The notes under the pieces are model-generated. The model worked only from the letters and a program-made list of their open reading frames with translations. It did not search any database and was not told the origin of the DNA. Source: Sycon ciliatum (Eukaryota > Porifera > Calcarea > Leucosolenida > Sycettidae). From it: a stretch of DNA of 64,000 bases. The DNA lies in assembly GCF_964019385.1 (NCBI RefSeq), contig NC_088655.1, positions 8,144,833 to 8,208,832 on the forward strand, read 5' to 3'. Within the stretch, counting starts at the first letter, position 1; each line of letters begins with the position of its first letter. The translations under genes were made by a program, and so were the position numbers. Shown here in pieces: positions 31,198-61,306 of this stretch.

Positions 31198-31229
31198 ATC
31201 AGCAAACCACGGTGAAGTAGGCCCACTTG

Positions 31230-31425: not shown

Positions 31426-31618
31426 TCCCCCGGGCGCCACTGTTGGGCTGCTGCTGTGTGGGTTGCTTACGTCCCGAGTCCCCAGGGCGGTGAGAGACGG
31501 CTGATGAGGAGACTGGCTTCGATACGGACGAAGCAGCTGCAGAGTGACCCTGAGCTGCAGCCTGGTCCTCAACTTTCTCCGCTTGCCGAGCATACGCGAG
31601 TGCCTTGGCAAGGGTCTG

Positions 31619-35126: not shown

Positions 35127-35674
35127 CTGCCAGGAAAGAGGCAGGACTCATCGAAGACGAAGCGCTCGCAACAAATAATAGCACTCGAAATATCTCGGGA
35201 GATTTAGGGCCTATCGCTTTGAGCCACAGCGCTTACAGCCTTGCCTACTGCATCAAAGTGAGCTCTACATGTTTGTTGACCTCTTCACACTACACAGAAG
35301 AGCGAAACAAGGATTATGTCTTAGCATTTCAACTCCAACAGCCATTACCAGTGCGAGAGAGAAAACTACAAAGGGCTTTGCTTTCTGTCGCATCGTCTCT
35401 CTTGCATGCAACTAATGAGAAAGAAGCCTAGTTAGCCCATGTACGCGCATGCTGGTGGTGGAGTGCTGCGAGTGAGTGTCACGTGACCACCTCGTGATTA
35501 AGCCGCGTGCGCAGCGTGTGGCCTGGCAAAATTTTATGGTCAGTTGAGGCGGCGTCTAATACTTTGGAGACGTGTTTTGCTGAGCTGTCTTTGTGCGAAG
35601 GAGAGTTCTTTGCGTTTGCAGTCAAAGTTTTTTCTTCCTTCCGAGGTTTTCCCTTTTCTCCGTTAGTTGCTGAG

Positions 35675-36250
35675 ATGAGTACCCGACGTGTCGCGCCCCG
35701 CAGCGAGCTCCTCCTGCTGCTGCAGCACCCCCTGCTCCCCCGACCCGCAGCATGACTGCTCGAGCTCCTCCTGCTGCTGCAGCACCCCCTGCTCCGCAGC
35801 AATGCTGGCTCCGGCGCCCGGGTTTTTTCCTTGCCAAATTGCAACCCTCCAGGCCTTGATCGCCACATCGGTCCAGGCGGCTGTTGGAGCCGTCACCCTT
35901 GCAGCCACAGGTCAGGCGGGGTCGACACGCCGTCCGTCCCGCCCGGCTACCCCTGCCAACACCGCCGATCCTCGGGTGCAGGTGGAGGAGTCGCTTCCCA
36001 CAGGTACAGGTGTGTGTAGTAGTAGTTCCACACGTGTGCCTACTAGTGCTAGGCCCCCTACCCCTGTGGCTGCGTCGACTGTTGTAGACGGGCTGTCTCC
36101 CCCTAGTGGTGTGACTATCCATAGCTCTCATGTGCCTACTCCTAGTGTGAATATCTCCAGCAGTCTCGCATACAATGATTATGTGTGTAACCCTAGTGCT
36201 GTCAATGTCGGGTCCTGTAAGCCCTCGGTCACACTACAGCAAGTTTGAAG
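35675..36250 (+). pseudogene. Proline/alanine/serine-rich Gag-like ORF, split by a Harbinger element
   Basis: Seen: ATG 35675 (MSTRRVAPRSE), a 56-bp direct repeat (35703 and 35759) encoding APPAAAAPPAP-type sequence with a frame change, then a long frame with IATLQALIATSVQAAVGAVT and Pro/Ser/Thr-rich sequence to 36248. This resembles the start of a retroelement Gag. The frame runs straight into the TIR of the element beginning at 36221, so the natural end is displaced. A possible continuation with STYGEVLRGKYVELALFLTP lies just after that element (37075-37200). Confidence 0.4.
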
Positions 36251-37046
36251 CTGGACGCAGCGTCAAGCCGCAGCACTTGACGCAGTCGCGGGGTCACACA
36301 GTGTTTTGTTTTTGCAGCTCGTGACTGCCGCGGCCTGACGCATTTGTCAACGTGACAAAATCACCAGGGAAACTCAATGACGACATGGATTTCCACGGAA
36401 ACCGTCCTTTTGTTTATTATACAAAATAATTGTCAGACAAAATTTTCAAAATTTTCATTGATTTTTCATTATTACAAGAAGACGAAAGGTCCACATGTGC
36501 ACAATTGTTGTTGTTTCCTTCCGAATTATTTGAAGCCCTTTTCAGTTGTAGTGTCATGGATAAGCCAAGAAAAGTCCGCATCTCAGCTGTGTTTCTCCTG
36601 ACTTCGTCATAGTGGTTCTCCTTTTTTGGGGCTCTTGACGACAACACAACACTCACAAGTCAGCAGGCTCCAGTTGAGCGATGACCCACTCATACTACTG
36701 TCCTTTTTCAACATCATTTTCTTCTCAGAAAATGCCTCGCTCTTCCGCCAGGTTTGGAGAAGAGCAGCCTCGGCCTCGTAGGTCCACAGACTCATCTCGA
36801 AAAAAGAGGGAACAAAACAAACCTTGAAGAGACGAATGTCGAAAGACTGCTCAACTCAAGCAACTGCCTTAAAAGACACTGTTTTTTCGCCAAGCGTCAC
36901 TCCTATCAGCGGCAACACGGCCGATTTCCCCACGTCAGATGCAGCAGCGTCTGATGCTCAAATTTCCCGCGTCTGCGTCAGTTGCCATGGAAAGGCTCAT
37001 GATTCTGACGCTGACGCAGCATTTTTGCCGTAGTGTGACCGAGGCC
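36221..37046 (-). mobile_element. PIF/Harbinger-like element with Myb/SANT relic, 826 bp
   Basis: Seen: inverted ends GCCCTCGGTCACACTAC (left) and GGCCTCGGTCACACTAC (right, inward), flanked by TAA (36218-36220 and 37047-37049). On the minus strand near 36740-36795 is SLWTYEAEAALLQTWRKSEA, like the first helix of the Myb/SANT-type protein that Harbinger elements encode beside their transposase. Further frames (36417-36656) are shifted. Known: the SANT-like protein aids DNA binding and import of the PIF transposase. No DDE transposase is visible, so it is non-autonomous or internally deleted. Confidence 0.7.
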
Positions 37047-37049
37047 TAA

Positions 37050-37330
37050 TGGGCAACTGACCACGTGTCCTGCAGTACGTACGGCGAGGTGCTGCGCGGG
37101 AAATATGTGGAGCTTGCGTTGTTCCTCACTCCCCTTGCGGACGAGCCAGCCACGAAGCGAGTCCAGGTGTCAGAGGACAGTGGCCAGCTAGGGCTCTCCC
37201 CGTCCCTGTTATCCCGCCACAAGTAAAGCCGGCGGGCCGCTGGAGAAGCTCTGCATGCGAATGTTACGTGCGGCAGCCAGCCGGGATGCCTATCTTGTAA
37301 GTCAGTGAGCGGCTCTCGCAATTCAAACTA
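37050..37330 (+). pseudogene. Possible downstream part of the split Gag-like ORF
   Basis: After the Harbinger element a plus-strand frame reads STYGEVLRGKYVELALFLTP followed by about 35 residues up to a TAA near 37227. It is out of frame with the upstream part. The association is based only on position and composition. Confidence 0.3.
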
Positions 37331-37489
37331 GTGTGTGTATGCCTGCACGGGCATGGTATTACTGTGAGTAGCTAGCTCGTTGTGGATTGCGGGGAACGGG
37401 ATGCCATGGTTTCTAGGACTACTATCTTTTTTGGGGCGAACGGGCCTCCTATTGTGTCTGTATGTTGTGACGCCTGATGCCAGGCAGTC

Positions 37490-37745
37490 ATGTGAGCCCT
37501 CGGTGGGTGATTTGCTGGCCTCGGTAGCCGTTTGTGTTTGCCCTCGGCGGGCAAGATGATACTGGCCCTCAACGGGCGGTTTGCTGGCCGCGGCGGCCAT
37601 TTGAGCGCCCTCGGTGGGCAGTATGCTAGTTTAGCCCTCGGCGGGCGGTTTGCTGCCCTCGGCGGCCATTTGCGCGGCCTCGGTGGGCAGTAGGCTAGTT
37701 TAGCCCTTCGGGCGACCTCGGTGGGCAGTATGCTAGTTTAGCCCC
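37490..37745. repeat. Degenerate GC-rich minisatellite
   Basis: Irregular repeats of GCCCTCGGCGGGCGGTTTGC and CCTCGGTGGGCAGTATGCTA types, about 35-55 bp apart. Confidence 0.7.
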
Positions 37746-38334
37746 CGACGATGCTAGTTTCCTCCATGCATCTTTACTCAATCAATTATTATCAAAGAGC
37801 ATATTCTTGAATACTTGAATTGTCCAAAAGAAATCCTGGCAACCCCCAACCCAAGGTGTCTGTTGTATGTTTGTGCACGCCATAGTGAGCAGTACGTTGT
37901 GCGGGTGTCTGCGTGTCAGAGCATGGGTACGCCAGTGGCGTGTCCGTGCATGTGTTCGCTTGTGTCTGACTGCGTGGGTGCACGAGTGCCCAAGCTGGGC
38001 GTGCGGGTTCACTTGGAGGTGCTTGCATATTTACGGGTGCAGGGGCTAACCGTGTACTTACCCTCGCATTCACACACGAACTATCAAACACGTCCTGTGC
38101 CGCATGCTGATCAATTAGTGCCATATTTGCATTGTACAGTGCACTCTCAGTTGACATGCCCCCTTTCGAACCCAGACAATCTTTTCGGGATTGGTCTATT
38201 CTACCACTTTCTGTCTTCAGGATGCTGAGTCGAATGATTTTGGTCCGAGGAATTTGAGACGCTCTTTTCCTCCTTTATCCCCAATCGAACTCACGCTCTT
38301 CCACCGAAACTGGGTGACCCTATCAGAGGGGGAT

Positions 38335-38415
38335 TTTGGAAAGGGTTTGCTCCCACACTGGAGCTCGCGCTATTCCGACACTTGACTCCGGTGTGGGAGC
38401 AAACCCTTTCCCAAA
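38335..38415. repeat. 30-bp-stem hairpin
   Basis: GGAAAGGGTTTGCTCCCACA at 38338-38357 is repeated inverted at 38391-38410. The stem has about 30 pairs with two mismatches and a loop of about 22 bases. Confidence 0.85.
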
Positions 38416-39061
38416 AAAATCATCCCTGAAGTCGCAACCACTATTAAATAGAGGGGGATTTCTATGCAAAATGTCACTAAAAGCGCCATTTCGTTCTTAT
38501 GAGCACGGATGAACACGATTGGCCCATATGTTGTAGTCTTTTGGATGCAGAGTCGACTGGTATTGTTTCAAGAAGGCTACGATGCAGCGTTTGGCCCTTA
38601 TTCCAAAATAAAACACAGGTGAGTAAGCGATCACGTGCTGGTCCGTACACCAGTCACTTGGTCATCGTGCCTGCAGGCTACAACTTTTCTTCACACCAAG
38701 GTTCAACTCAAAGGTTTAAAGGGGGTTCAACTCGAGTGACAGGAACGCGCCCAAACAGGCTGTAAGTTGTAAGGAGCTTAGCTGCTCACTTCGCACCAGC
38801 TGTGTAAGCCATTGCCTGCCTGCTGGTTGTTTCACCTACTGCTTATTCTTCCAACCACAAACATCACATCGGAGAGGTCATTCAGTGCACTTCGCAGCCT
38901 GAAGACATTTATTTAATCCACACAAGACCGTGTCAATCATCTTTCTCCAAGTTATGAGAATTCGTATACATCTAGAGGTTATACCAATGATTTCATAGAG
39001 ATTTTCACAAGAGTTTGTTGCAAAGCGCATTTGATTGGTGCATTCCACCTCCAAAGCTCAC
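38416..39061. other. Intron-like spacer
   Basis: No gene. A weakly similar pair, GATGCTGAGTCGAATG (38221) and GATGCAGAGTCGACTG (38545), suggests degenerate repeat copies. Confidence 0.35.
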
Positions 39062-39166
39062 CTCATCTTGGACATTAACATCGACACCATGTTTTACCAG
39101 CAGCTCACACAGTGCTTTATGTCCACGGAACGCGCAGACATGTAGAAGTGATACTGGTTCGCTCTT
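39062..39166 (-). CDS. Ankyrin-repeat exon, host gene
   Basis: Seen: 105 bp, 35 codons, phase 0. On the minus strand the acceptor TATTGTAACCTAATAG and donor GTGAGC flank it. It encodes KSEPVSLLHVCAFRGHKALC then ELLVKHGVDVNVQDE: the ankyrin pattern with LLHVCA...GH...LLVKHGVDVN. It follows the exon at 48258-48380 after a 9.1-kb intron containing the satellite. It precedes the exon at 26631-26729 after 12.3 kb. The phase match and continuous repeat register support one gene. Confidence 0.8.
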
Positions 39167-39774
39167 CTATTAGGTTACAATAGCAGCAAACACACACATA
39201 CACACATACACATTATTACAATCACTTGCAAAGCATACAAGATCCAGATTTTTCCTTTCTATTGCAGCATAGTGCCATACACATGTACTCGAAGTACAAT
39301 TGACTTCTCCAAGAACACAGCATATCTCATCTTAGTGTGTGTGTCGTAGAGGACGGGGACATAGTAAATGCTGGGTGGAACTTGACACAAAATTCACAAT
39401 AATACTTGCATCAGTGGTGCCTATGAACTAAACTCATAGCCTCAGATTAGTGATACAATGAGCACATCACCCCAAGAGTGTGTAACTGACCACACAGCCT
39501 TTATCCAGTGCTGCTACGCCAAAACTTCACATCACACGTGGTTCAAAGGTTACGCTGGCAAGCAGTGCAAAGTGACCCGAGGAGAGTTGAACCCAAAACA
39601 GGGTTGGGTTCAACCCTCTATCTATCATGCATGGTGTGAACATACTGTGTGCAAGCTCGTCAAGTGATGTGAAGTCCTGCCATCTCATAACGTGTTACAA
39701 CAAAACTGCAGTAGCACACTCTTGGGGGTTGTGTACACTTGGGAGAACTAGAGTACCTTTTCCCTTATCGTTCA
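39167..39774. other. Intron, unique sequence before the satellite
   Basis: Short CA-rich patch at 39188-39212. No gene recognised. The frame at 39458-39667 lacks support. Confidence 0.45.
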
Positions 39775-42700
39775 CCTCTACTAAAGTATACCCACTGGCC
39801 AGTGGTTATGTTGTAGCTCTACTAAAGTATACCCACTGGCCCGTGGTTATGTTGTACCTCTACTAAAGTATACCCACTGGCCAGTGGTTATGTTGTACCT
39901 CTACTAAAGTATACCCACTGGCCAGTGGTTATGTTGTACCTCTACTAAAGTATACCCACTGGCCAGTGGTTATGTTGTACCTCTACTAAAGTATACCCAC
40001 TGGCCAGTGGTTATGTTGTAGCTCTACTAAAGTATACCCACTGGCCAGTGGTTATGTTGTACCTCTACTAAAGTATACCCACTGGCCAGTGGTTATGTTG
40101 TAGCTCTACTAAAGTATACCCACTGGCCAGTGGTTATGTTGTAGCTCTACTAAAGTATACCCACTGGCCAGTGGTTATGTTGTAGCTCTACTAAAGTATA
40201 CCCACTGGCCAGTGGTTATGTTGTACCTCTACTAAAGTATACCCACTGGCCAGTGGTTATGTTGTAGCTCTACTAAAGTATACCCACTGGCCAGTGGTTA
40301 TGTTGTAGCTCTACTAAAGTATACCCACTGGCCAGTGGTTATGTTGTAGCTCTACTAAAGTATACCCACTGGTCAGTGGTTATGTTGTAGCTCTACTAAA
40401 GTATACCCACTGGCCAGTGGTTATGTTGTACCTCTACTAAAGTATACCCACTGGCCAGTGGTTATGTTGCAGCTCTACTAAAGTATACCCACTGGCCAGT
40501 GGTTATGTTGTAGCTCTACTAAAGTATACCCACTGGCCAGTGGTTATGTTGTAGCTCTACTAAAGTATACCCACTGGCCAGTGGTTATGTTGTAGCTCTA
40601 CTAAAGTATACCCACTGGCCAGTGGTTATGTTGTAGCTCTACTAAAGTATACCCACTGGCCAGTGGTTATGTTGTAGCTCTACTAAAGTATACCCACTGG
40701 TCAGTGGTTATGTTGTAGCTCTACTAAAGTATACCCACTGGCCAGTGGTTATGTTGTAGCTCTACTAAAGTATACCCACTGGTCAGTGGTTATGTTGTAG
40801 CTCTACTAAAGTATACCCACTGGCCAGTGGTTATGTTGTAGCTCTACTAAAGTATACCCACTGGCCAGTGGTTATGTTGTAGCTCTACTAAAGTATACCC
40901 ACTGGTCAGTGGTTATGTTGTAGCTCTACGAAAGTATACCCACTGGCCAGTGGTTATGTTGTAGCTCTACTAAAGTATACCCACTGGCCAGTGGTTATGT
41001 TGTAGCTCTACTAAAGTATACCCACTGGCCAGTGGTTATGTTGTAGCTCTACTAAAGTATACCCACTGGCCAGTGGTTATGTTGTACCTCTACTAAAGTA
41101 TACCCACTGGCCAGTGGTTATGTTGTAGCTCTACTAAAGTATACCCACTGGTCAGTGGTTATGTTGTAGCTCTACTAAAGTATACCCACTGGCCAGTGGT
41201 TATGTTGTAGCTCTACTAAAGTATACCCACTGGCCAGTGGTTATGTTGTAGCTCTACTAAAGTATACCCACTGGTCAGTGGTTATGTTGTAGTTTACTAA
41301 AGTATACCCACTGGTCAGTGGTTATGTTGTAGCTCTACTAAAGTATACCCACTGGACAGTGGTTATGTTGTAGCTCTACTAAAGTATACCCACTGGTCAT
41401 TGGTTATGTTGTAGCTCTACTAAAGTATACCCACTGGCCAGTGGTTATGTTGTAGCTCTACTAAAGTATACCCACTGGCCAGTGGTTATGTTGTAGCTCT
41501 ACTAAAGTATACCCACTGGCCAGTGGTTATGTTGTAGCTCTACTAAAGTATACCCACTGGCCAGTGGTTATGTTGTAGCTCTACTAAAGTATACCCACTG
41601 GCCAGTGGTTATGTTGTAGCTCTACTAAAGTATACCCACTGGCCAGTGGTTATGTTGTACCTCTACTAAAGTATACCCACTGGCCAGTGGTTATGTTGTA
41701 GCTCTACTAAAGTATACCCACTGGCCAGTGGTTATGTTGTAGCTCTACTAAAGTATACCCACTGGCCAGTGGTTATGTTGTAGCTCTACTAAAGTATACC
41801 CACTGGCCAGTGGTTATGTTGTAGCTCTACTAAAGTATACCCACTGGCCAGTGGTTATGTTGTAGCTCTACTAAAGTATACCCACTGGCCAGTGGTTATG
41901 TTGTACCTCTACTAAAGTATACCCACTGGCCAGTGGTTATGTTGTAGCTCTACTAAAGTATACCCACTGGCCAGTGGTTATGTTGTAGCTCTACTAAAGT
42001 ATACCCACTGGCCAGTGGTTATGTTGTACCTCTACTAAAGTATACCCACTGGCCAGTGGTTATGTTGCAGCTCTACTAAAGTATACCCACTGGCCAGTGG
42101 TTATGTTGTAGCTCTACTAAAGTGTACCCACTGGCCAGTGGTTATGTTGTAGCTCTACTAAAGTATACCCACTGGCCAGTGGTTATGTTGTAGCTCTACT
42201 AAAGTATACCCACTGGCCAGTGGTTATGTTGTAGCTCTACTAAAGTATACCCACTGGTCAGTGGTTATGTTGTAGCTCTACTAAAGTATACCCACTGGCC
42301 AGTGGTTATGTTGTAGCTCTACTAAAGTATACCCACTGGCCAGTGGTTATGTTGTAGCTCTACTAAAGTATACCCACTGGTCAGTGGTTATGTTGTACCT
42401 CTACTAAAGTATACCCACTGGCCAGTGGTTATGTTGTAGCTCTACTAAAGTATACCCACTGGTCAGTGGTTATGTTGTAGCTCTACTAAAGTATACCCAC
42501 TGGCCAGTGGTTATGTTGTAGCTCTACTAAAGTATACCCACTGGCCAGTGGTTATGTTGTAGCTCTACTAAAGTATACCCACTGGTCAGTGGTTATGTTG
42601 TAGCTCTACGAAAGTATACCCACTGGCCAGTGGTTATGTTGTAGCTCTACTAAAGTATACCCACTGGCCAGTGGTTATGTTGTAGCTCTACTAAAGTATA

Positions 42701-45700
42701 CCCACTGGCCAGTGGTTATGTTGTAGCTCTACTAAAGTATACCCACTGGCCAGTGGTTATGTTGTACCTCTACTAAAGTATACCCACTGGCCAGTGGTTA
42801 TGTTGTAGCTCTACTAAAGTATACCCACTGGTCAGTGGTTATGTTGTAGCTCTACTAAAGTATACCCACTGGCCAGTGGTTATGTTGTAGCTCTACTAAA
42901 GTATACCCACTGGCCAGTGGTTATGTTGTAGCTCTACTAAAGTATACCCACTGGTCAGTGGTTATGTTGTAGCTCTACTAAAGTATACCCACTGGTCAGT
43001 GGTTATGTTGTAGCTCTACTAAAGTATACCCACTGGACAGTGGTTATGTTGTAGCTCTACTAAAGTATACCCACTGGTCAGTGGTTATGTTGTAGCTCTA
43101 CTAAAGTATACCCACTGGCCAGTGGTTATGTTGTAGCTCTACTAAAGTATACCCACTGGCCAGTGGTTATGTTGTAGCTCTACTAAAGTATACCCACTGG
43201 CCAGTGGTTATGTTGTAGCTCTACTAAAGTATACCCACTGGCCAGTGGTTATGTTGTAGCTCTACTAAAGTATACCCACTGGCCAGTGGTTATGTTGTAG
43301 CTCTACTAAAGTATACCCACTGGCCAGTGGTTATGTTGTAGCTCTACTAAAGTATACCCACTGGTCAGTGGTTATGTTGTAGCTCTACTAAAGTATACCC
43401 ACTGGCCAGTGGTTATGTTGTAGCTCTACTAAAGTATACCCACTGGACAGTGGTTATGTTGTAGCTCTACTAAAGTATACCCACTGGTCAGTGGTTATGT
43501 TGTAGCTCTACTAAAGTATACCCACTGGCCAGTGGTTATGTTGTAGCTCTACTAAAGTATACCCACTGGTCAGTGGTTATGTTGTAGCTCTACTAAAGTA
43601 TACCCACTGGCCAGTGGTTATGTTGTAGCTCTACTAAAGTATACCCACTGGACAGTGGTTATGTTGTAGCTCTACTAAAGTATACCCACTGGCCAGTGGT
43701 TATGTTGTAGCTCTACTAAAGTATACCCACTGGCCAGTGGTTATGTTGTAGCTCTACTAAAGTATACCCACTGGCCAGTGGTTATGTTGTAGCTCTACTA
43801 AAGTATACCCACTGGCCAGTGGTTATGTTGTACCTCTACTAAAGTATACCCACTGGTCAGTGGTTATGTTGTAGCTCTACTAAAGTATACCCACTGGCCA
43901 GTGGTTATGTTGTAGCTCTACTAAAGTATACCCACTGGCCAGTGGTTATGTTGTAGCTCTACTAAAGTATACCCACTGGTCAGTGGTTATGTTGTACCTC
44001 TACTAAAGTATACCCACTGGCCAGTGGTTATGTTGTAGCTCTACTAAAGTATACCCACTGGTCAGTGGTTATGTTGTAGCTCTACTAAAGTATACCCACT
44101 GGCCAGTGGTTATGTTGTAGCTCTACTAAAGTATACCCACTGGCCAGTGGTTATGTTGTAGCTCTACTAAAGTATACCCACTGGTCAGTGGTTATGTTGT
44201 AGCTCTACGAAAGTATACCCACTGGCCAGTGGTTATGTTGTAGCTCTACTAAAGTATACCCACTGGCCAGTGGTTATGTTGTAGCTCTACTAAAGTATAC
44301 CCACTGGCCAGTGGTTATGTTGTAGCTCTACTAAAGTATACCCACTGGCCAGTGGTTATGTTGTACCTCTACTAAAGTATACCCACTGGCCAGTGGTTAT
44401 GTTGTAGCTCTACTAAAGTATACCCACTGGTCAGTGGTTATGTTGTAGCTCTACTAAAGTATACCCACTGGCCAGTGGTTATGTTGTAGCTCTACTAAAG
44501 TATACCCACTGGCCAGTGGTTATGTTGTAGCTCTACTAAAGTATACCCACTGGTCAGTGGTTATGTTGTAGCTCTACTAAAGTATACCCACTGGTCAGTG
44601 GTTATGTTGTAGCTCTACTAAAGTATACCCACTGGACAGTGGTTATGTTGTAGCTCTACTAAAGTATACCCACTGGTCAGTGGTTATGTTGTAGCTCTAC
44701 TAAAGTATACCCACTGGCCAGTGGTTATGTTGTAGCTCTACTAAAGTATACCCACTGGCCAGTGGTTATGTTGTACCTCTACTAAAGTATACCCACTGGC
44801 CAGTGGTTATGTTGTAGCTCTACTAAAGTATACCCACTGGCCAGTGGTTATGTTGTAGCTCTACTAAAGTATACCCACTGGCCAGTGGTTATGTTGTAGC
44901 TCTACTAAAGTATACCCACTGGCCAGTGGTTATGTTGTAGCTCTACTAAAGTATACCCACTGGCCAGTGGTTATGTTGTAGCTCTACTAAAGTATACCCA
45001 CTGGCCAGTGGTTATGTTGTACCTCTACTAAAGTATACCCACTGGCCAGTGGTTATGTTGTAGCTCTACTAAAGTATACCCACTGGCCAGTGGTTATGTT
45101 GTAGCTCTACTAAAGTATACCCACTGGCCAGTGGTTATGTTGTACCTCTACTAAAGTATACCCACTGGCCAGTGGTTATGTTGCAGCTCTACTAAAGTAT
45201 ACCCACTGGCCAGTGGTTATGTTGTAGCTCTACTAAAGTATACCCACTGGCCAGTGGTTATGTTGTAGCTCTACTAAAGTATACCCACTGGCCAGTGGTT
45301 ATGTTGTAGCTCTACTAAAGTGTACCCACTGGCCAGTGGTTATGTTGTAGCTCTACTAAAGTATACCCACTGGCCAGTGGTTATGTTGTAGCTCTACTAA
45401 AGTATACCCACTGGCCAGTGGTTATGTTGTAGCTCTACTAAAGTATACCCACTGGTCAGTGGTTATGTTGTAGCTCTACTAAAGTATACCCACTGGCCAG
45501 TGGTTATGTTGTAGCTCTACTAAAGTATACCCACTGGCCAGTGGTTATGTTGTAGCTCTAATAAAGTATACCCACTGGTCAGTGGTTATGTTGTACCTCT
45601 ACTAAAGTATACCCACTGGCCAGTGGTTATGTTGTAGCTCTACTAAAGTATACCCACTGGTCAGTGGTTATGTTGTAGCTCTACTAAAGTATACCCACTG

Positions 45701-47373
45701 GCCAGTGGTTATGTTGTAGCTCTACTAAAGTATACCCACTGGCCAGTGGTTATGTTGTAGCTCTACTAAAGTATACCCACTGGTCAGTGGTTATGTTGTA
45801 GCTCTACGAAAGTATACCCACTGGCCAGTGGTTATGTTGTAGCTCTACTAAAGTATACCCACTGGCCAGTGGTTATGTTGTAGCTCTACTAAAGTATACC
45901 CACTGGCCAGTGGTTATGTTGTAGCTCTACTAAAGTATACCCACTGGCCAGTGGTTATGTTGTACCTCTACTAAAGTATACCCACTGGCCAGTGGTTATG
46001 TTGTAGCTCTACTAAAGTATACCCACTGGTCAGTGGTTATGTTGTAGCTCTACTAAAGTATACCCACTGGCCAGTGGTTATGTTGTAGCTCTACTAAAGT
46101 ATACCCACTGGCCAGTGGTTATGTTGTAGCTCTACTAAAGTATACCCACTGGTCAGTGGTTATGTTGTAGCTCTACTAAAGTATACCCACTGGTCAGTGG
46201 TTATGTTGTAGCTCTACTAAAGTATACCCACTGGACAGTGGTTATGTTGTAGCTCTACTAAAGTATACCCACTGGTCAGTGGTTATGTTGTAGCTCTACT
46301 AAAGTATACCCACTGGCCAGTGGTTATGTTGTAGCTCTACTAAAGTATACCCACTGGCCAGTGGTTATGTTGTAGCTCTACTAAAGTATACCCACTGGCC
46401 AGTGGTTATGTTGTAGCTCTACTAAAGTATACCCACTGGCCAGTGGTTATGTTGTAGCTCTACTAAAGTATACCCACTGGCCAGTGGTTATGTTGTAGCT
46501 CTACTAAAGTATACCCACTGGCCAGTGGTTATGTTGTAGCTCTACTAAAGTATACCCACTGGTCAGTGGTTATGTTGTAGCTCTACTAAAGTATACCCAC
46601 TGGTCAGTGGTTATGTTGTAGCTCTACTAAAGTATACCCACTGGTCAGTGGTTATGTTGTAGCTCTACTAAAGTATACCCACTGGCCAGTGGTTATGTTG
46701 TAGCTCTACTAAAGTATACCCACTGGTCAGTGGTTATGTTGTAGCTCTACTAAAGTATACCCACTGGTCAGTGGTTATGTTGTAGCTCTACTAAAGTATA
46801 CCCACTGGCCAGTGGTTATGTTGTACCTCTACTAAAGTATACCCACTGACCAGTGGTTATGTTGTAGCTCTACTAAAGTATACCCACTGGTCAGTGGTTA
46901 TGTTGTAGCTCTACTAAAGTATACCCACTGGCCAGTGGTTATGTTGTAGCTCTACTAAAGTATACCCACTGGCCAGTGGTTATGTTGTAGCTCTACTAAA
47001 GTATACCCACTGGCCAGTGGTTATGTTGTACCTCTACTAAAGTATACCCACTGGCCAGTGGTTATGTTGTAGCTCTACTAAAGTATACCCACTGGTCAGT
47101 GGTTATGTTGTAGCTCTACTAAAGTATACCCACTGGCCAGTGGTTATGTTGTAGCTCTACTAAAGTATACCCACTGGACAGTGGTTATGTTGTAGCTCTA
47201 CTAAAGTATACCCACTGGCCAGTGGTTATGTTGTAGCTCTACTAAAGTATACCCACTGGTCAGTGGTTATGTTGTAGCTCTACTAAAGTATACCCACTGG
47301 CCAGTGGTTATGTTGTAGCTCTACTAAAGTATACCCACTGGACAGTGGTTATGTTGTAGCTCTACTAAAGTAT
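39775..47373. repeat. 41-bp satellite array, about 185 copies, with higher-order structure
   Basis: Seen: the unit reads CTCTACTAAAGTATACCCAC, then TGGCCAGTGGTTATGTTGTA and one variable base. Each contains the perfect palindrome CACTGGCCAGTG and the palindrome GTATAC. Variants are GTAG/GTAC and GGCC/GGTC/GGAC. A rare ACG variant of ACTAAAG falls at about 40928, 42608, 44207 and 45806, giving a higher-order period of 1,599-1,680 bp (39-41 units). One unit at about 41290 is a base short. The array has hardly any ORF and no inserted element. It lies in the intron between two ankyrin exons. Confidence 0.95.
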
Positions 47374-47911
47374 ACCGTGTATACAGTAAACCTGTAACTA
47401 AGGACCACCCCTTGGGGCAAGAAGAAACGGTCTTTAGTGGCAGGTGGTCTTTAGTTAGAAGTTTGCACCATGCAACCCTATATGGATCCCATCTCTGATA
47501 TGTTTGTAAAAATGTAGCTAATACAATATCCCACCACTTGCGCAATGCCATTTCTCCTTTGAGAAGTAGCATCGATCATAGAGCAGGTTCGAGCAGGTGC
47601 TCTCCAAGACGTTTCGTTTCATGTTTGCTCATGAGAGCACTTGAAACTATGCCAGGTGCAGTTCAGCCCATTGTCAAAATGAGATTGCGTGAATTCGTGC
47701 AGCTATATTATCGAAAGAGTCCATTCAGGACAGAAATCATCAAAATGTCGAAGAAGCAGCTTCGAACAACCTTTGAATTCCTGCACTGCTGTCGCTAGTT
47801 ACATGTCAAAAATCGACTTTGGGACAAGAAAAGGCGGCCGCTGGATGCGTTCAGCAGGTAGTCGCTTGTCACAGTGCATTTTTGTATATGAGACCGTCCG
47901 TGCCTGGTGAA
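47374..47911. other. Intron, satellite flank
   Basis: Unique sequence after the array. AAGGACCACC at 47400 and GGTGGTCTTTAG at 47444 are echoed by the repeat at 47912. No gene. Confidence 0.4.
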
Positions 47912-48068
47912 GTGGTGTGTAGTACCAGGCTGGTCGCTAGTTACGGTGGTCTTTAGTACCAGGCTGGTCGCTAGTCACGGCGGTGTGTAGCAGCAGGCTG
48001 GCTGTTAGTCACGGTGCCGGTCTTTAGTACCAGGCTGGTTGCTAGTCACGGTGCCGGTCTTTAGTTAC
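47912..48068. repeat. 34-37-bp tandem repeat, 4-5 copies
   Basis: Units of the type GTCTTTAGTACCAGGCTGGT followed by CGCTAGTCACGGTG, with small length differences. Confidence 0.8.
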
Positions 48069-48257
48069 AGTTGTTTTACTCTATATGGCTTTGAGGCGCA
48101 TTGTTCACCACATTTACAAAGAGAGGAACATGCAATTTTCTGGGAACATCTTTGACAGCAAAGTGACGCTGCATGAGCGCGTGCTCAGTTTATCAGAATA
48201 AACAAACCAGTGATCAGAACAAACAGTTTCACGCCGAGCACTTTGGCCAGTACTCAC

Positions 48258-48380
48258 CTGCCGTGGCTCTGTATAGACGATGAACATAACTTTGCCGTGC
48301 AAGAGCGACGGATTACACCACAGTAAAAACTGGACACAATGAATGCTGCCATAGTAGCATGCTGCCAGCATCAGAAGAGC
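48258..48380 (-). CDS. Ankyrin-repeat exon, host gene
   Basis: Seen: 123 bp, 41 codons, phase 0. The acceptor TTGCACTTGCATACTCAG and donor GTGAGT flank it. It encodes ALLMLAACYYGSIHCVQFLL then WCNPSLLHGKVM and nine more residues ending PRQ. The first 33 residues match the ankyrin frame (LMLAA..G...CVQFLL), and the remainder leads into the next repeat. The upstream exon (63375-63643) ends in phase 0, so joining keeps the register. The repeat is divergent: it lacks the usual TPLH and the Gly-Ala before the loop. Confidence 0.75.
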
Positions 48381-48471
48381 CTGAGTATGCAAGTGCAAAT
48401 GCGCACACACGCACAAACAAGAACACAGATACGTACGTACATACATGCACATTCGCACACGCTGACATGCT

Positions 48472-48473
<2 letters not shown>

Positions 48474-48555
<82 letters not shown>

Positions 48556-48820
48556 CCATTTAAACACATATTTTGCACGCACGTATGCACATAAACACTC
48601 ACACAGGCGCGTGCGGACACACCGCACACACACAAAAACACACATACAGATACATACACACATATACACACACATACACATACTAAAAACACAAACAAAC
48701 AAAACAAACAGATAAAGATACACACATGCTAGCATGTTCAAACACACGCACACACAAACACACAAAATAACACAGACAAACACAAACACACGGACATTTG
48801 CATGCTCGCACATACACACA

Positions 48821-48862
<42 letters not shown>
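48474..48862. repeat. (CA)n and CA-rich tract
   Basis: Two pure (CA)n runs (48474-48552 and 48824-48857) joined by CA-rich degenerate sequence. It lies about 90 bases upstream (minus strand) of the ankyrin exon acceptor. Confidence 0.9.
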
Positions 48863-49084
48863 GAACTCAGAACTCAGACATGCCCATCATCACGGATGCG
48901 ATGATAGCTAACAGCTATGTTAGACATAGCAAATTGAGCTAGGATTACACCATTCAACAGCTTGCAAGGATGATGATTTAACCGCAACTAATTTTAGCCT
49001 GGTGTCCACCGCACAGCTGATTGAAGTGGCTTTTTCTGGCCAGTGAATCCCTATTTTTCATTTTCTTTCTCTACTTTTACACAC

Positions 49085-49315
<231 letters not shown>

Positions 49316-49690
49316 TGCTCACTGCCAAAACTGGTCACGTGAGTCTCACCGGGGAGGGGAGAGAAACTCCAAAGGAATCTTGGAAAGATGACTCAATTAG
49401 CTATTGAACCGCCCAACGGCCTACACCCCTGAAATCCGCAAAATAGCGTGGACTTGAAAGTATCCTACTTATGGGCTCACCACACCTCAGTAAGCGGGGG
49501 AGGACAAGGTGACGAAAAGGATTGATGGCATCAAGGTAACCGTCCCGGGATCCAACTGCAGTTACCTCTGCCCCCAGTGAAGGTAACACTTGGTACTAGT
49601 GCGGGTGGCTAAATAATGTAGTTTGGTCCTACAGATTGATCGCGGCACGGTGATCACGGCACGGCGGCACGGTGCCAACGAGTGAGGAAA
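49316..49690. other. Spacer before the LINE RT
   Basis: No gene. GCGGCACGGTGATCACGGCA and related CGGCACGG repeats lie at 49641-49672. Confidence 0.4.
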
Positions 49691-49699
49691 TCATTTGGC

Positions 49700-50745
49700 G
49701 TGCTCGGCAAAGACATGTCGAAAGCGTTCAACACAATATCCAGGTACCGTTTGCTCACTATATTAGCTAGCTTCCTTGAGAATGATGAGGTCACCATTAT
49801 GTCTTAGCTACTCAGGAACACGTCCCTTGATGTCCGGTTACCTGGAGGGAAGAGCGAGCAGTTCCAGACCACCTGAGGTACACCACAGGGTGACTCCATA
49901 TCACCTGTCTTATTCATTATCTACCTGCAGGCAACGCTTTGGGAGGTGAGACAGATTATCTGCGCAAGACCCGATCTAGATCGTCTGACTGCAAATGTAT
50001 TCAAGAGCTCCTGCCCGACATTGCAAAGTGCCTCAAAGCCTGGGACCTCAACATCAATGAATCTAAAACAGAACTCACAAACATCATATGGCTCAACGAC
50101 AGAGTGTGCGAGGAATGGCGCCTCACCATTGGTGACCACGAGGATGCTGCGCGGAGAACGCAACTCGCCACGGCTGCCCTGCACCGACTCTGGGCATTAT
50201 GGATATGTGGTTCCGTTGTAAACGAATCACTGAGAGTACGGCTATACAAAAACATTCATCTTACCAGTCCTGTGCTACAACAATGGGACTTGGGGCCTCA
50301 CTGGCACCGCTATGCATAGAGTTGATGCGTTCCATAGACAACAACTGCCAAAGGTTATTGGCATACGGTACCCAGCTAAAATCAAGAATATCACCCTGTG
50401 CAAGAGGACAAACTCAACACCACTTGGTATCTCGGTCCTGAGAGCCCGCTGGCGTCTGTTTGGGCACGTGCTGCGACTGGACCAGAGTGCACCGGCGAAC
50501 CTGTCAATGTGCTCCTACTTCAAGCCATCCACTGAGCCTACCTGGAGGGGGATGCGGGGCACAACTCTGGCTGTCGTGCTCAGACACGATCTCGAGCTGG
50601 TTGGGAGGACCCTCAAGACCTCGGCGGATCTTAAGGAGCTGAGAAGCATCGCCCAGAACCGCGGGGCGTCGAGCTACCTTTGCGGCCGTATCCTAGAGAG
50701 ATATGTTACTGCTCACGGAGGGTCCCTGGCAATGATCAGCAAATT
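49700..50745 (+). pseudogene. LINE reverse transcriptase, C-terminal part
   Basis: Seen: DMSKAFNTISRYRLLTILAS (RT palm, first catalytic Asp), GTPQGDSISPVLFIIYLQA (RT block), then KCLKAWDLNINESKTEL, RLTIGDHEDAARRTQLATAA, HRQQLPKVIGIRYPAKI and LRARWRLFGHVLRLD to SLAMISKFKFN. Known: this order is typical of the RT and C-terminal region of non-LTR elements. The YADD box is missing between 49930 and 49980, and there are stops at 49807 and 49873 plus frame shifts near 49940, 50270 and 50310. It could belong to the same lineage as the endonuclease scrap at 3818, but the two do not overlap, so this cannot be tested here. Confidence 0.8.
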
Positions 50746-50887
50746 CAAATTCAACTCGGTTGAGCTGCTTGTTTGCTTGTTTTAATTGTATTCTATTTTC
50801 GTCAGGCAAGCACCTAGAATTAATTCATTGTTTCGGCTCATTTCACTCATCCGTACCAGGGTCGGTCGGTCGGGTTTATTTTTTATT

Positions 50888-51247
50888 TTATTTTAGTTGC
50901 GGGCAGGGGTGTATGCATGTACAATTGTGCATATCGAATAGCTTTTCTCCATCAAGCCAGTCGATTAAATCTGACTGTAGTCGATCCAGCGTAGCCATTG
51001 TCCCATCAGATCCAGGTCCGGGGCCACGTCCCCTCCAGGACCAGATCTTGGCCTCGCTGGCAAACGAGTCTGACGAGCAGCTCTCACCGAAGTTCTTGAA
51101 AACTTCTGTCAATGAGCGACGCAGTGGCGGAGCTGATGCTGTTTCAGGACCGATTGCGAATCGGAGATACAATGTAGAAGACAACGTCGTCACTAAGTGC
51201 TGCAGGCAGCTTCTGACTCTGAGGTCGATGTCTGGACTGCTATACAT
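50888..51247 (-). CDS. Hypothetical terminal exon with polyadenylation signals
   Basis: Seen: a minus-strand frame begins at or near ATG 51247 (or after an AG at 51240) and reads 119 codons to TAA, with CLQHLVTTLSSTLYLRFAIG, SLTEVFKNFGESCSSDSFAS and MATLDRLQSDLIDWLDGEKL. Directly after the stop is AAATAAAATAAAAAATAAAC (tandem AATAAA, about 50877-50896). I recognise no family. It may be a retroposed or transposon ORF, since a host gene end is unexpected inside the ankyrin intron. The same region on the plus strand is low in evidence. Confidence 0.3.
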   Translation of the reverse strand: MYSSPDIDLRVRSCLQHLVTTLSSTLYLRFAIGPETASAPPLRRSLTEVFKNFGESCSSDSFASEAKIWSWRGRGPGPGSDGTMATLDRLQSDLIDWLDGEKLFDMHNCTCIHPCPQLK

Positions 51248-51627
51248 ATTTTGGGTCGTGTGTGTACATAGTCTACCTTGTAGTCATGCACATTTGCATG
51301 CACTAAAAAAATTGCGGTCAGGTGAAAAAAGTTTTATATCGCATATGTTTTTATATCGCTATCAATATCCTGTTTGGCTGTTGTCGCTTCGGCTTATGCG
51401 AAAGCTGTACATGCTGTGTATATCTACATTGCATTTATGCCGACGCGGAGAACCTTCTCATAATAATACTTCAACATGCCAATGTCCAATCGCAACCATG
51501 GAACCGCGGCTCATCTAGCTCCTCCTGAGCCCGCCTGGACTGATAAATCTGTAAAGGCATAAACAACTCGAAATAGCCGTTTCCTTTGACTGGGAAACAG
51601 CGAGAGTCTACGAGGAGGGTAGCGTAG

Positions 51628-51981
51628 GTGACAGACTTGCAGACGACGAAAGACTCGCCAATGCAGCCTCACACAGGTCATCGGCTCAGGCAATTACAAC
51701 CCAGAGAGCGGTTCCAACCTGAGATGCCACACGCAGGCAGGAATGTTCGTGCATCCAACATTGGCAACAACGCCCAATTCGAGCGAAGGCCATCAGGCCA
51801 CGGACTGTTTGACAACGATGGCCGAACCCCTGGCAGCGGCCTGCATTGCTGGACCTGCCAGCAGTTGGGTCACGTCAGTAGGCATTGCTCCCAGTTCGGC
51901 CAAGGCAGTAGTCGCCAACCACACTGGACTCAGCAACCAAAACCCACTGCTGGAGCTCGTCCATGGATAGACGGAGCATGA
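51628..51981 (+). pseudogene. Retroelement Gag fragment with CCHC knuckle
   Basis: Seen: 117 codons, basic and Gln/Arg-rich, with CWTCQQLGHVSRHC (C-x2-C-x4-H-x4-C) at 51847-51888. The frame continues upstream through stops to about 51545. It is probably the 3' end of Gag of the element whose RT start follows at 52030. Confidence 0.65.
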
Positions 51982-52019
51982 GTTCCCGGACTGGCTGGAG
52001 TCTGACGAGATAAGTGCTT

Positions 52020-52300
52020 GTGACATTAACGTTCATGGGCGGTTATTACACCGCATTGCATTTTGGGGAAATTATTGGTGCCTCAGATTTTGTTTTATGT
52101 ATTATTCGTTATGGCTATTTTTGTGTGTTGCGTTCGGGGGGGCTGTGGAAGAAAATACTATCCATGTAATTATCCCGCTGGGCGTGGTTCCTAAAAGCAA
52201 TGGAAAATTGAGGTTGATTATAGACCTCCGCTTCCTCAATAAGCACTCGGCCGACTTTCATTTTAGAGTTGAGTTGTTTTTTAAATCACCTTGCTCCCCC
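52020..52300 (+). pseudogene. Retroelement RT start, DIRS/Ngaro-like pattern
   Basis: Seen: HGRLLHRIAFWGN, after a frame change FVLCIIRYGYF, then VIIPLGVVPKSNGKLRLIID and LRFLNKH. Known: a Phe-Trp block, a V/I-L-x-x-I-x-x-GY block and VPKxNGKxRLIxDLRxxNKH precede the RT palm of tyrosine-recombinase retroelements. The RT breaks off at about 52270 in C-rich sequence, so only the N-terminal fingers survive. It differs from the minus-strand RT at 59095, so it is a second element. Confidence 0.6.
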
Positions 52301-52465
52301 CCCCTCCCATGTGTAGTCCGCCCTCTGACAGGCTGCCTTTTGTTGTCTCTTGGTGTGTTTTTCTTGTGCTTGCTGCCTATGCTGTTCTGTTTCTGTCGTT
52401 TTTTATTATAGAGTGCTTTTCCGTGTGAATTGCCAATTCAATGAACTTACCCTTACCCATGTGAA

Positions 52466-52745
52466 GTGAGATGCCCGGGGAGCAGGGATGATGAGGGAGG
52501 GAGTAGCCCGATGGGCAGTGATGATGACGGAGGGAGAAGCCCAGTGGGCAGTGATGATGAGGAAGGGAGAAGCCCGATGGGCAGTGATGATGAGGGAGGG
52601 AGAAGCCCAATGGGCAGTGATGATGAGGGAGGGAGAAGCCCAATGGGCAGTGATGATGAGGGAGAAGCCCAAAGGGCAGTGATGATGAGGGAGGGAGAAG
52701 CCCAATGGGCAGTGATGATGAGGGAGAAGCCCAAAGGGCAGTGAT
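52466..52745. repeat. 33-bp minisatellite
   Basis: About eight units of GGGCAGTGATGATGAGGGAG followed by GGAGAAGCCCRAT, some shortened by nine bases. It opens frames on both strands that are not genes. Confidence 0.9.
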
Positions 52746-52899
52746 GTTGACAATGGTTGTCTCAGCTTGCCTGTATGCATGACGGTATGAGGCGTGAGGC
52801 CGTGTTAACACGACACCTGGGTCGGACGGTGCAGCGGTTGTCAAGCCCAGTCCCCTACTCAATTCACACGGCGCATATTGTACACAACAAGCATCTTAC

Positions 52900-53205
52900 C
52901 AAGAGTAGATAAACAAGACTGTGCAACTCCGGATCTCTCCTGCACACTCTGCAGATACCCCGTCCCACACCGGAATCTTTTTGTTGACGTCACCTTTTTC
53001 CAGAAAAAACGCGCATTTTGCCGCAGAGCAGTGGGAGAGCACGTGCTGGATACCGACCTTGTAATGTAAAGCCCGGCCAAGTGCACGAGGCAAAACTTTC
53101 CAAAAGACTCGCAGCGCGTGCGTCGTAGAAAAGATTACGTCAACAAACAATTCCGCCGTCGGCGAACGCATCCAGGAGTTGCACACTCTTGTTTATCTAA
53201 TCTTG
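52900..53205. mobile_element. MITE, 306 bp, same family as 23511-23905
   Basis: Inverted ends CAAGAGTAGATAAACAAGAC (left) and CAAGATTAGATAAACAAGAG (right, inward), each continuing TGTGCAACTCC. The interior differs from the 23511 copy. The flanks do not show a clear duplicate. A TA at 52906-52907 and 53198-53199 could mark a shorter Tc1/mariner-type element starting GATAAACAAGA. Confidence 0.75.
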
Positions 53206-53865
53206 ATATTACACAGAGGAGGGTCCCGTCTCCCACTGCACTCTGATCTCACAGTCCTTGTTCCGTCAGCTGATGTCCACCCTGGCCCAACCAGATGCAT
53301 AACTATGGGATCTGCAATGTATGACCATGACTTGTCTTAGGTTCTTTGCCCTACTGCCCTGGGACTTGCATCGTCTCGTGGTGTCCTCGCTGGATTCTAC
53401 CCCGACCCATATGTCCTTGCACCTGCCAAGTCGCAAAAACAACTAACTTAAGCAGGGGACGTGATTCTGGTTGCTCGCAAATTCACCGGCTCAATGCCAT
53501 GTCCGGTCCGCATAACAGAGAGATTTCTCCATCAAGGAGGACATTCACCCGGCCAACATGTACTGGGAAAAGTAACCTCCGCCCGCTCTGGGCCAGGCGT
53601 GCGCAGCACCATGAGCTACAGCAGAGCCACGGAAATCCTCAAGTTGGCTATGGGCCGCACCCAGGCTGACCCTACATCATACGTCTCCTCAGCCTCTGAT
53701 CAGGTGGTGCGACGGTCGCAGCTAACTCGGGCATTGTGGACAGACTGCTACAACGGCACGGCGGTTGGAGGTCCGCGTCCTCCAAGGATAAGTATATCGC
53801 GGACTCACAGCACGACTTTCTTTCTGTATCCACACACATTGCTTCCACCTGACTATCCTTTGTTT
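53206..53865. other. Unassigned stretch with a 141-codon frame
   Basis: The frame 53461-53886 contains STMSYSRATEILKLAMGRTQ, which has a faint likeness to a tyrosine recombinase segment (SY-x-RA-x-E), but no catalytic Arg or His is visible. Not called a gene. Confidence 0.3.
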
Positions 53866-53989
53866 CGTGAGTACATTCTCTGGTAGACCACTACCCCATG
53901 AACAAACCGGTTGCTATGTGAGTGAAAACATTGTTTTCAGGGCTGAGCATAGCAAAAGAGTGTAAAACCTTATTTTTAACTCACCATTT

Positions 53990-54020
53990 TCTGTTGTGCA
54001 CTGTTGCTCTCCCACTGCGC

Positions 54021-54056
<36 letters not shown>
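53990..54056. repeat. (CT)n tract
   Basis: A short CT microsatellite between the two direct-repeat blocks at the 3' end of the recombinase element. Confidence 0.85.
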
Positions 54057-54058
<2 letters not shown>

Positions 54059-54254
54059 TGCCATCATGGTCCTGTGTTCCACGTTTTAGCCTGGAATGTT
54101 CCCACCCACCCTCCCTCCCTCCCTTGGGTCCTAGACGTTTTGGCTTGTTTTGTCCCCTGTTGTCACGCATGCACTCGCTATTGCAGACCAGTGGAGAACA
54201 CACAACGTATGGAGAATTCATGGAGTGCAGGGCAACCGAATCTGGCATGTGATA

Positions 54255-54515
54255 GTCATTATGTAGGATCATCCGCGCACGAGATGCAGCCCATGAAGTA
54301 GGCACCCAAGAAATGGGCAGAGTGTGGACGGCTCATATGATGGCATGTATGATATTCCACGCATGAAGTGCAGCCCATGACATGCGCACCCTTGAAATGG
54401 GCGGAGTGTAGACGGCTCATATGATGGTACGTATGATAGTCCACACACGAAGTGCAGCCCATGAACTGGGCGCCCATTAAATAGACGGGGTGTAGACGGC
54501 CCACGCACAAAGTGC
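54255..54515. repeat. 85-bp tandem repeat, three copies
   Basis: GCAGCCCATGA recurs at 54286, 54371 and 54456 (period 85). Each unit also has GTGTAGACGG-type and CATATGATGG motifs. It lies in the 3' noncoding part of the recombinase element. Confidence 0.85.
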
Positions 54516-54809
54516 GATGCCCGTTAGAGGGCAGGAGTCTGGGCGTAGGAGTGTGATGGCCGAAGGTTGTGGTAGATTGCCAGATGAGAGGAGATAGCTT
54601 GCTGATGTTTGCCCTGCCTCCATGCTAAGTTGTGACATATTGCAATGCACGTGAATGACGCTGTTGTTGCTATCAGCGCAGTTTGTCAGCACAATCTTGG
54701 CAGAGCAAATTGCTGTGCTGTTCCAAACAATCGGCAGCTGGTCTAAGCAAGTGTGTGGGTACATGCATCAGTGTGAGTTGTGTGCTCACGTGGCGGGTTC
54801 TTACATACT

Positions 54810-54931
54810 TCATTGTGTTCTGCGATGCGCCTGTCCCTCGAACAGCTGTTGGGTCAGCTGCGACATGTCTGTGTCGGTCGTCCTGATGTAGCACAGGACA
54901 CTGTTGCTCCTCCATCGGCCCATTGACCTGA
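54810..54931 (-). pseudogene. Tyrosine recombinase C-terminus (3' of the Kolobok insertion)
   Basis: Seen: SMGRWRSNSVLCYIRTTDTD to a stop at 54810. G-R-W and the Tyr in CYIRT match the end of DIRS-type recombinases, where this Tyr attacks DNA. It continues the frame that is broken at 57720 by the 2,780-bp insertion. Confidence 0.8.
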
Positions 54932-55195
54932 TTAAAGGGGAACTACACCCAAAAATCAAAACTTCATGGTCCGTAGAGTTTTGGACGCTGAGTCGAATGG
55001 TGAAGGTCCCACTTTGATCCGACCAAGCGTTCTTGAGATATATCAGTTTGCAATTGTCCTTTTCGGGTCCGTGCCGTGACGTCACAAACACGTGACGTCA
55101 TTGAGACTTGGTCATCCTTTGGCCAGATCCAGAAACACTGGGATTTCGCATCTTCTTTCTGTTTGTGCATGGAAGAAGAGGGTATTTGTGTCATC

Positions 55196-55508
55196 ATGGC
55201 TTCTGGCTGTGTTGTTGGCTACTATAATCTTACTGGTAACCCCCCTGGGATGAACCTGCACCAACTTCCGAAGGATTGTGCTTGGCGCAGGCCGAGCAGT
55301 GCACCATAGCAGCTATCAAGCGACATAATTATTTGCTTGACAATTTCGGGACTACAATGTAAATCCTTCGCGTGTGTTCCAGCCATTTGGCAGAGGAGGA
55401 TTTTCAGGAGGAATATTATGCACTCATCCGATGCGGACGCTGGTGGATGAAACTGTGGTGTGTCCTTTTTCGCACGCCACACTGTGAAGCGTCAGTCGAA
55501 AAGCGGAG
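55196..55508 (+). pseudogene. THAP zinc-finger remnant of the Kolobok-like element
   Basis: Seen: ATG 55196 opens MASGCVVGYYNLTGNPPGMN followed by LHQLPKDCAWRR; after a frame change near 55300 come AEQCTIAAIKRHNY and VCSSHLAEEDFQEEYYALIR. Known: the C2CH THAP finger has C-x2-4-C, then H-x-x-P, and C-x2-H about 35-50 residues later. Here H, P and C-x2-H are present, but the second Cys position is Tyr (GCVVGYY) and a stop breaks the middle. The segment ends at a donor GTGAGT (55509). Confidence 0.7.
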
Positions 55509-56009
55509 GTGAGTGCAATATTTCTAAAACAAGCTACTGTATGTAGTTCTTTCTTTTCCAAAGCATTTGTAGAATTGTTTTGGACTACATCACTACGAAA
55601 TGTGAAGCTTTCCGAAACCGGCTTGATGAGGTGGACGGCAGTAGATCTCCTGTTTCCCTAGGCTATACTGCGTGCAATCGATGAACCTGTCTGCGATTGC
55701 TGTTCTTGATTTTACAGGAAGAAGATCAAGAGCGGCTGTACCATCGGTCGCAGTGACTCACTGTTGAGCTACGACCACTGCCACCGCCCCAAGGTTATAG
55801 GAAGGACTGTTTGCAGCGCCAGCGCCTCTAGCTGGCATGTTTTTTCCTGTATGAACACACAGTATGTACTGCTGATAAGCTACATCACGCAATGACCCGC
55901 AGTTCAAGGAGAGAAGATAGTCCACATACCGGCAACAGTGTACACCTATTCGGGAACTCGTTGGGTTTTCTCAGTAAAACTGTATGGATGCAGATGAGAG
56001 CCAGACATT

Positions 56010-61262: not shown

Positions 61263-61306
61263 GTCCCCTACCCCATGTACAAACTGGTTGCTATGTGAGT
61301 GAAAGC

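Follow-up and report, generated by a model that had tools for sequence, protein, structure and literature searches.

A 41-bp minisatellite next to an ankyrin exon of Sycon ciliatum, probably copied with its gene family and grown separately in each copy

This analysis deals with a tandem array of 41-bp units in the genome of the sponge Sycon ciliatum. The array lies in a window of 64,000 nucleotides (C14:8144833–8208832; the assembly comprises 538 Mb in 313 contigs, which are labelled C1, C2, C12 and so on), and its closest neighbour is a short exon coding for a single ankyrin repeat. This exon is found on the left side of the array, at a distance of 610 bp, and, as it is read from the minus strand, transcription would pass through the array before reaching it (Table 1). 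From the sequence alone it had previously been proposed that a satellite of a length usual for heterochromatin sits here between two coding exons. We come to a different view: judged from the assembled genome, the array is a locus-bound and probably intronic minisatellite which was inherited with a family of ankyrin genes, and not a genome-wide satellite.

Table 1. Features of the window and their positions, counted from the first base of the window
Feature	Position	Strand	Remarks
Non-autonomous DNA transposon copy	18383–20042		Long inverted ends, TA flanks; class deduced from these and not from a transposase
Second ankyrin exon (candidate)	26631–26729	-	Pfam Ank, E 2.7e-07; custom profile; 12 kb beyond the first exon, same strand
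Block collinear with paralogous loci	31952–64000, on to ~68102 past the window end		Other minisatellites inside
Single-repeat ankyrin exon, 105 nt	39062–39166	-	Pfam Ank, E 0.00029; between ACCTAATAG and GTGAGC
Intron segment from exon to array	39167–39775		Common to 16 of 17 loci (window and 15 of 16 others)
41-bp minisatellite array	39776–47376	+	185 full units and a truncated last one; TRF, unit walk
Higher-order repeat markers, dominant lag 39 units	40924–45842	+	Four ACG units, two GTGTACC units
Single 40-bp unit with 1-bp deletion	41252–41291	+	Position from counting units
Right flank of the array	47377–47957		Shared directly with L015, L016 and L029; in L019 and L028 the shared part follows an inserted transposon

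Tandem Repeats Finder (TRF) describes the array, within the limits given in Table 1, with a period of 41, 185.4 copies and 98% match, in agreement with the approximately 185 units of 41 bp counted in the sequence-only reading. Walking along the array unit by unit yields 186 unit starts, the last one belonging to a truncated unit, with 184 spacings of 41 bp and one of 40 bp; 104 of the 186 units are identical to the consensus. With units in the range of ~10–100 bp that are arranged head to tail over not more than several kilobases at particular loci, the array has the properties of a minisatellite. A 12-base palindrome had been reported for each unit. We find it in exact form in 132 units only, and most of the units lacking it have T or A at position 24, which is the centre of the palindrome. 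Folding of the unit as RNA is no better than folding of shuffled sequences (z −0.36 and −0.45), and folding as DNA is modest at best compared with shuffles (z −0.21 and −1.44). Variant events show no clear deficit within the 12-base core (30 of 133 compared with 38.9 expected, p 0.10); without the two most variable positions, which were picked post hoc, 18 of 100 events fall into the core (p 0.026). Because folding is weak, the palindrome is broken in 54 of the 186 units and the core is not clearly spared, we have dropped the palindrome, or a cruciform formed by it, as a key feature of the array. Neither Rfam families nor tRNAs were detected in the window, and the exact unit is absent from the prokaryote and viral contigs searched. 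The sequence CACTGGCCAGTG is found 689 times genome-wide compared with 6 times for the reversed control, and 334 of these occurrences sit in 17 of the arrays. It is also clustered on C2 between 32.57 and 33.03 Mb and occurs at scattered single sites on C1, four of which were inspected and had nothing obvious in common.

In the whole genome, copies of the unit with at most three mismatches occur 664 times, divided between the two strands as 389 and 275, and the reversed control gave none. The arrays were tallied by means of their left junction, which is present at 21 places (control 0). A query of 31 residues taken from the ankyrin exon beside the window array detected 26 copies of this exon, 16 on C12, eight on C14 and one each on C3 and C9, and none of them contains a stop. 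All 21 left junctions pair with one ankyrin exon each, with the opposite strand label and with a gap of 602–613 bp between the matched stretches. Five of the 26 exons are without a junction. For one of them (C12:7788568) an array is located 6.9 kb away, at locus L018, where the left side has been replaced by other sequence including a transposon copy, which brings the number of arrays to 22 (the L-numbers denote paralogous loci; 16 of them were retrieved and, together with the window, make up the 17 loci first compared). Nineteen of these arrays were read and contain 599 units when up to nine mismatches are allowed and 595 with up to three; for the other three the spacing between left and right junction corresponds to 37, 22 and 4 units. 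In total ~658 of the 664 unit copies can be placed in the 22 arrays (595 read and ~63 from the junction spacing). The arrays are found on three contigs and the exons on four, in both orientations. Between paralogues the number of units read ranges from 3 to 185, the copy of the window being the longest and the others having 3–110. At C14:5.079 Mb (L030) the right junction is 5.1 kb away from the left one and only 11 units could be read, so this array is interrupted; from position ~2260 of this locus it runs directly into a coding stretch which we take to be of retroelement type. Since nearly all copies are gathered in 22 arrays, which occupy the same place in members of a single gene family, the unit does not qualify as a genome-wide satellite. 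This possibility was rejected because the 538-Mb assembly holds no more than 664 copies and these are tied to a single kind of site, with the proviso that an assembly can under-represent heterochromatin, and the puzzle of a heterochromatic satellite between exons largely dissolves.

In all 15 arrays with at least six units the consensus unit is identical at 40 of 41 positions, and position 41 is either G or C. For comparison, the adjacent intron has 3–16 variable columns per 41-bp stretch among 12 of these loci. The stability of the consensus may reflect constraint or exchange between the loci, but taking the majority over many units would likewise preserve an ancestral consensus.

The array of the window is in addition organized in a higher-order pattern with a step of 39 units. 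This pattern is real, because the unit agreement of 0.582 at lag 39 (1599 bp) was not equalled at any lag from 1 to 99 in 5000 shuffles of the unit order. At lag 78 the agreement amounts to 0.533, a value that 3 of 5000 shuffles equal, and an initial run gave 0.578 at lag 39 with a top shuffled value of 0.5625 (2000 shuffles). The blocks are more alike than neighbouring units and are in register, as is characteristic of a higher-order repeat. Two variant units mark the pattern. The ACG variant CTCTACGAAAG is present at 40924, 42604, 44203 and 45802, with spacings of 1680, 1599 and 1599 bp, and the GTGTACC variant AAAGTGTACC at 42119 and 45317, that is at a distance of 3198 bp or 78 × 41. The first ACG interval comprises 41 units instead of 39, and its length of 1680 bp is explained by the single 40-bp unit. 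These markers had already been noticed in the sequence-only reading, with positions of both variants that are right within a few bases and with the same ACG spacings and the same distance of 78 units. The block-wise amplification that was proposed from them is backed for the window array by the dominant lag and the marker spacings, in steps of ~39 units, and the pattern persists in the unit-by-unit analysis, on which the proposal had been made to depend. Among five arrays tested, the 39-unit pattern is confined to the window copy: the best lags in L057 (110 units) and L058 (77 units) are reached by 871 and 518 of 5000 shuffles, and those in L015 (48 units) and L016 (37 units) by 612 and 3274 of 5000 shuffles, respectively.

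The frame of the ankyrin exon is open in all 26 copies and its acceptor AG is kept in all 26; the donor GT is kept in 25 copies and lost in L054, as read by eye. With an ankyrin repeat, an open frame and splice sites, the sequence next to the array has what is expected of an ankyrin-repeat gene. The ratio of nonsynonymous to synonymous changes (pN/pS) is 1.25 over the 33 codons, 2.99 at six codons that were chosen post hoc and 0.57 at the remainder, and the whole-exon ratio alone is no proof of positive selection. Among the 26 copies nine amino acids are found at codon 1 and ten at codon 3, and codon 2 is nearly constant. This codon-wise variation argues for coding. On the other side a second AG is present 13 bases further on in 24 of 26 copies (by eye), so that the exon might not include the first codons. 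Among the 16 copies for which flanks are included, the first nine bases reach a diversity of 0.413, a value above that of all 650 overlapping 9-bp windows of the intron (mean 0.071, maximum 0.243). When 394 open reading frames of the block shared by the paralogues were tested for an excess of third-position changes, the lowest p was 0.0037 and none remained after correction. This test does not single out the ankyrin exon either, a point against it: with changes at the first and second codon positions, it does not rank in the top 14. Positions 3, 5, 13 and 26 are among those that are varied in designed ankyrin proteins. According to one report, the randomised positions make up the binding surface of such proteins (PMC8683736).

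The earlier statement that the array sits between two coding exons holds for the left side, where the conserved ankyrin exon is found. On the other side no exon emerged in the range searched: the three frames of the minus strand from 47377 to 63700 do not contain a convincing Pfam-recognisable exon, the next 10 kb beyond the window (6.4 kb scanned) gave no convincing exon and a single sub-threshold EED match (E 0.009), and a custom ankyrin profile applied to the window and 10 kb on each side detected only the two ankyrin open reading frames.

The similarity between the loci extends far beyond exon and array. A left flank of at least 770 bp is common to the window and 15 of the 16 other loci and is 88–95% alike next to the array. 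In a masked comparison the window is collinear with locus B from 31952 to 68102, with locus A up to 63696, with locus C from 36283 to 60535 and with locus D from 35452 to 39773, the alignments being interrupted by insertions in either copy. The collinear block is 84–98% alike, and in locus A the part corresponding to 52.7–58.9 kb is present twice, ~28.5 kb apart. As long stretches of four loci are collinear, the copied piece measures tens of kilobases. Further minisatellites are located in the shared block, with units of 33 bp at 52482–52750, of 30 bp at 60536–61261 and of 28 bp from 63697 to ~67525, the last of these being ~3.8 kb long and reaching past the window end.

At 11 of the 16 loci a relative of the DNA transposon of the window (Table 1) sits in the last array unit. 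In L019 and L028 the sequence resumes beyond this transposon at window coordinate 47356, and 10 of the 11 insertion-bearing copies have a 38C change in the last unit in common. We considered a single inherited insertion that marks one clade. This is contradicted by the tree of the left flank, in which the insertion-less copies L016 and L029 are placed among the insertion-bearing ones, as would result from recombination across the array.

The flanks of the array indeed point to different relatives. On the left the closest relative of L016 is L019 (0.039), with the window well apart (0.110), and on the right its closest relative is the window (0.063), with L019 well apart (0.133). Six loci yield 15 quartets, which overlap in their loci and so are not independent; in 11 of these the favoured pairing changes from one side of the array to the other, with p < 0.01 in 10. 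In the strongest quartet (window, L016, L028 and L019) the sites on the left favour the window with L028 by 28:1 and those on the right the window with L016 by 30:0 (p 5e-16, by Fisher's test, which treats sites as independent). As the relationships flip in this way, exchange between the paralogues has broken at or beside the repeat. However, the paralogues recombined elsewhere too: one switch is found between the exon (last site 39129) and the intron (first site 39176), and distances indicate a further one between 54 and 60 kb, so that the array is one breakpoint among several.

Taken together, we favour, with a probability of roughly 0.85, that the array is a non-coding minisatellite within the intron that immediately precedes the ankyrin exon, that it is ancestral, and that it was copied with the family and has been growing in each copy on its own. 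The array would already have been tandem in the ancestor of the gene family and would then have been copied along with the family. Unequal exchange, conversion or slippage may then have lengthened or shortened each copy separately. Within the window array, blocks of ~39 units (1.6 kb), in one instance probably of 78, would have been duplicated, leading to 185 units and to the private higher-order pattern. Recombination between paralogues would also have used the array region as a breakpoint. The intron presumably continues on the far side of the array, and the array itself probably has no function of its own. Three points weigh against this reading. The length of the array and the splicing are deduced from a single assembly, the exon upstream of the array was not found within the range searched, and a neutral array need not have so stable a consensus, though a consensus is buffered by majority counting.

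An alternative, which we consider unlikely, gives the array an active role: it would be a recombination substrate that lets paralogues swap the hypervariable ankyrin exon together with its surroundings. The flip of relationships in 11 of 15 quartets would be expected in this case, as would the retention of an array beside at least 21 of 26 exons, the hypervariability of the adjoining exon and the unusually stable unit consensus. A published parallel might be seen in the GA and GAT repeats reported around the Sp185/333 genes (PMC5103432). Nevertheless, the switches at the exon/intron border and at 54–60 kb are free of the array, the quartets are not independent, and four exons are open even though the junction search gave no array close to them. 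It is far less probable that the length of the array or its higher-order pattern is an artefact of assembly, caused by collapsed or falsely expanded copies. Long arrays of near-identical units are certainly prone to assembly error, but 7.6 kb fits within the length of long reads, if such reads were used for the assembly, the blocks hold differing private variants rather than exact copies, and the other arrays of the family differ in length and in variants. The least probable account, rejected as the main one, is that a mobile element of the Helentron type (HINE) dispersed the array as its central repeat: the dispersal over four contigs by exons and three by arrays in both orientations would be compatible with it, but the common part is a collinear block including the exon (~31952–68102 compared with locus B) and not a short element, the distance to the exon is constant at 21 of 21 junctions, no shared ends were seen directly outside the array (no search for empty sites was made), and the only transposon recognised has inserted into the array and did not carry it.

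Beyond the preferred reading of the array as an inherited minisatellite, the genes around it deserve attention. With the second candidate exon as a query we obtained at least 150 scored matches among 343 candidates, and these 150 are nearly all located in C12 6.27–13.36, C14 4.94–8.96, C3 38.25–38.60 and C9 13.07–13.14 Mb. Of the scored matches 146 are on these four contigs; 114 follow one of the 26 exons downstream on the same strand before the next exon, compared with 29 matches on the opposite strand in those intervals. On C3 12 matches are found in 383 kb and after the exon of the window 10 matches in 189 kb, in both cases with none on the opposite strand; three of the 26 exons have no following match. 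Single ankyrin exons are spaced ~10–40 kb apart in long runs on the same strand, most of which are headed by one array-bearing exon; with these head exons the ranges on C3 and C9 are 38.2–38.6 and 13.04–13.14 Mb. The simplest reading of these runs is that they belong to very large genes; alternatively, they could be runs of separate genes or gene clusters. It is doubtful whether there are ~26 giant ankyrin-receptor genes which have binding-surface codons under diversifying pressure and 41-bp arrays as exchange substrate and which would form a recognition system of the kind known from invertebrates.

Other parts of the window contain a 27-bp repeat at 16092–17213 with 41.6 copies, a higher-order period of four units (108 bp) and long open stretches in several frames, and fragments of long terminal repeat (LTR) retrotransposons at 8880–12540 and 28907–31618 (minus strand) with integrase core, RNase H and aspartyl protease; these domains and the intron-bearing ankyrin exons are eukaryotic in character. 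An open reading frame at 57675–58298 (minus strand) without Pfam match resembles by eye what we take to be the C-terminus of a tyrosine recombinase.

The array is an ordinary minisatellite of a known kind that has grown, and the fast-changing gene family around it is more interesting. The array is nevertheless instructive as a locus-bound repeat that keeps its place across many paralogues and still grows independently in each of them, and 22 arrays in one family mark a place where it can be tested whether minisatellites promote exchange between paralogues. The ankyrin family, in which the codons at the start of the exon change several times faster than the adjacent intron, would matter more if it were a true recognition system.

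In a literature search of limited coverage, which is weak evidence, we noticed no paper on this ankyrin family, and the closest likenesses are to other tandem repeats at genes. Intronic minisatellites, that is variable number tandem repeats (VNTRs), have likewise a unit of tens of bases, are bound to a locus, differ in length between copies and contain internal block duplications. In contrast, the array described here occupies one conserved position in at least 21 paralogues, and one of them has a private 39-unit pattern. The Y-chromosomal genes kl-3 and kl-5 of Drosophila reportedly possess giant introns with megabases of satellites that are shared with heterochromatin. They are comparable in having tandem repeats inside the introns of very long genes, whereas the arrays in Sycon measure kilobases and are nearly confined to one gene family. 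The Sp185/333 genes, which serve immunity in the sea urchin, are reported to be short and clustered and to be surrounded by simple repeats of GA and GAT. Tandem repeats are found in both cases at fixed places by rapidly diversifying paralogues, but in Sycon a 41-bp unit lies inside the intron of long, widely spaced genes, and the likeness is one of setting. The central repeats of the Helentron HINE of the Pacific oyster are reportedly carried by a short mobile element (PMC7492417). Both systems have satellite-like arrays that are dispersed, vary in length and share their flanks, whereas the piece copied in Sycon is a block that measures tens of kilobases and includes an exon. Finally, the hnwd genes for non-self recognition of Podospora are also repeat-protein paralogues that diversify and exchange sequence. 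There the coding repeats themselves reportedly form the unstable array (PMC2873952), whereas in Sycon the unstable array is non-coding and accompanies the ankyrin exon.

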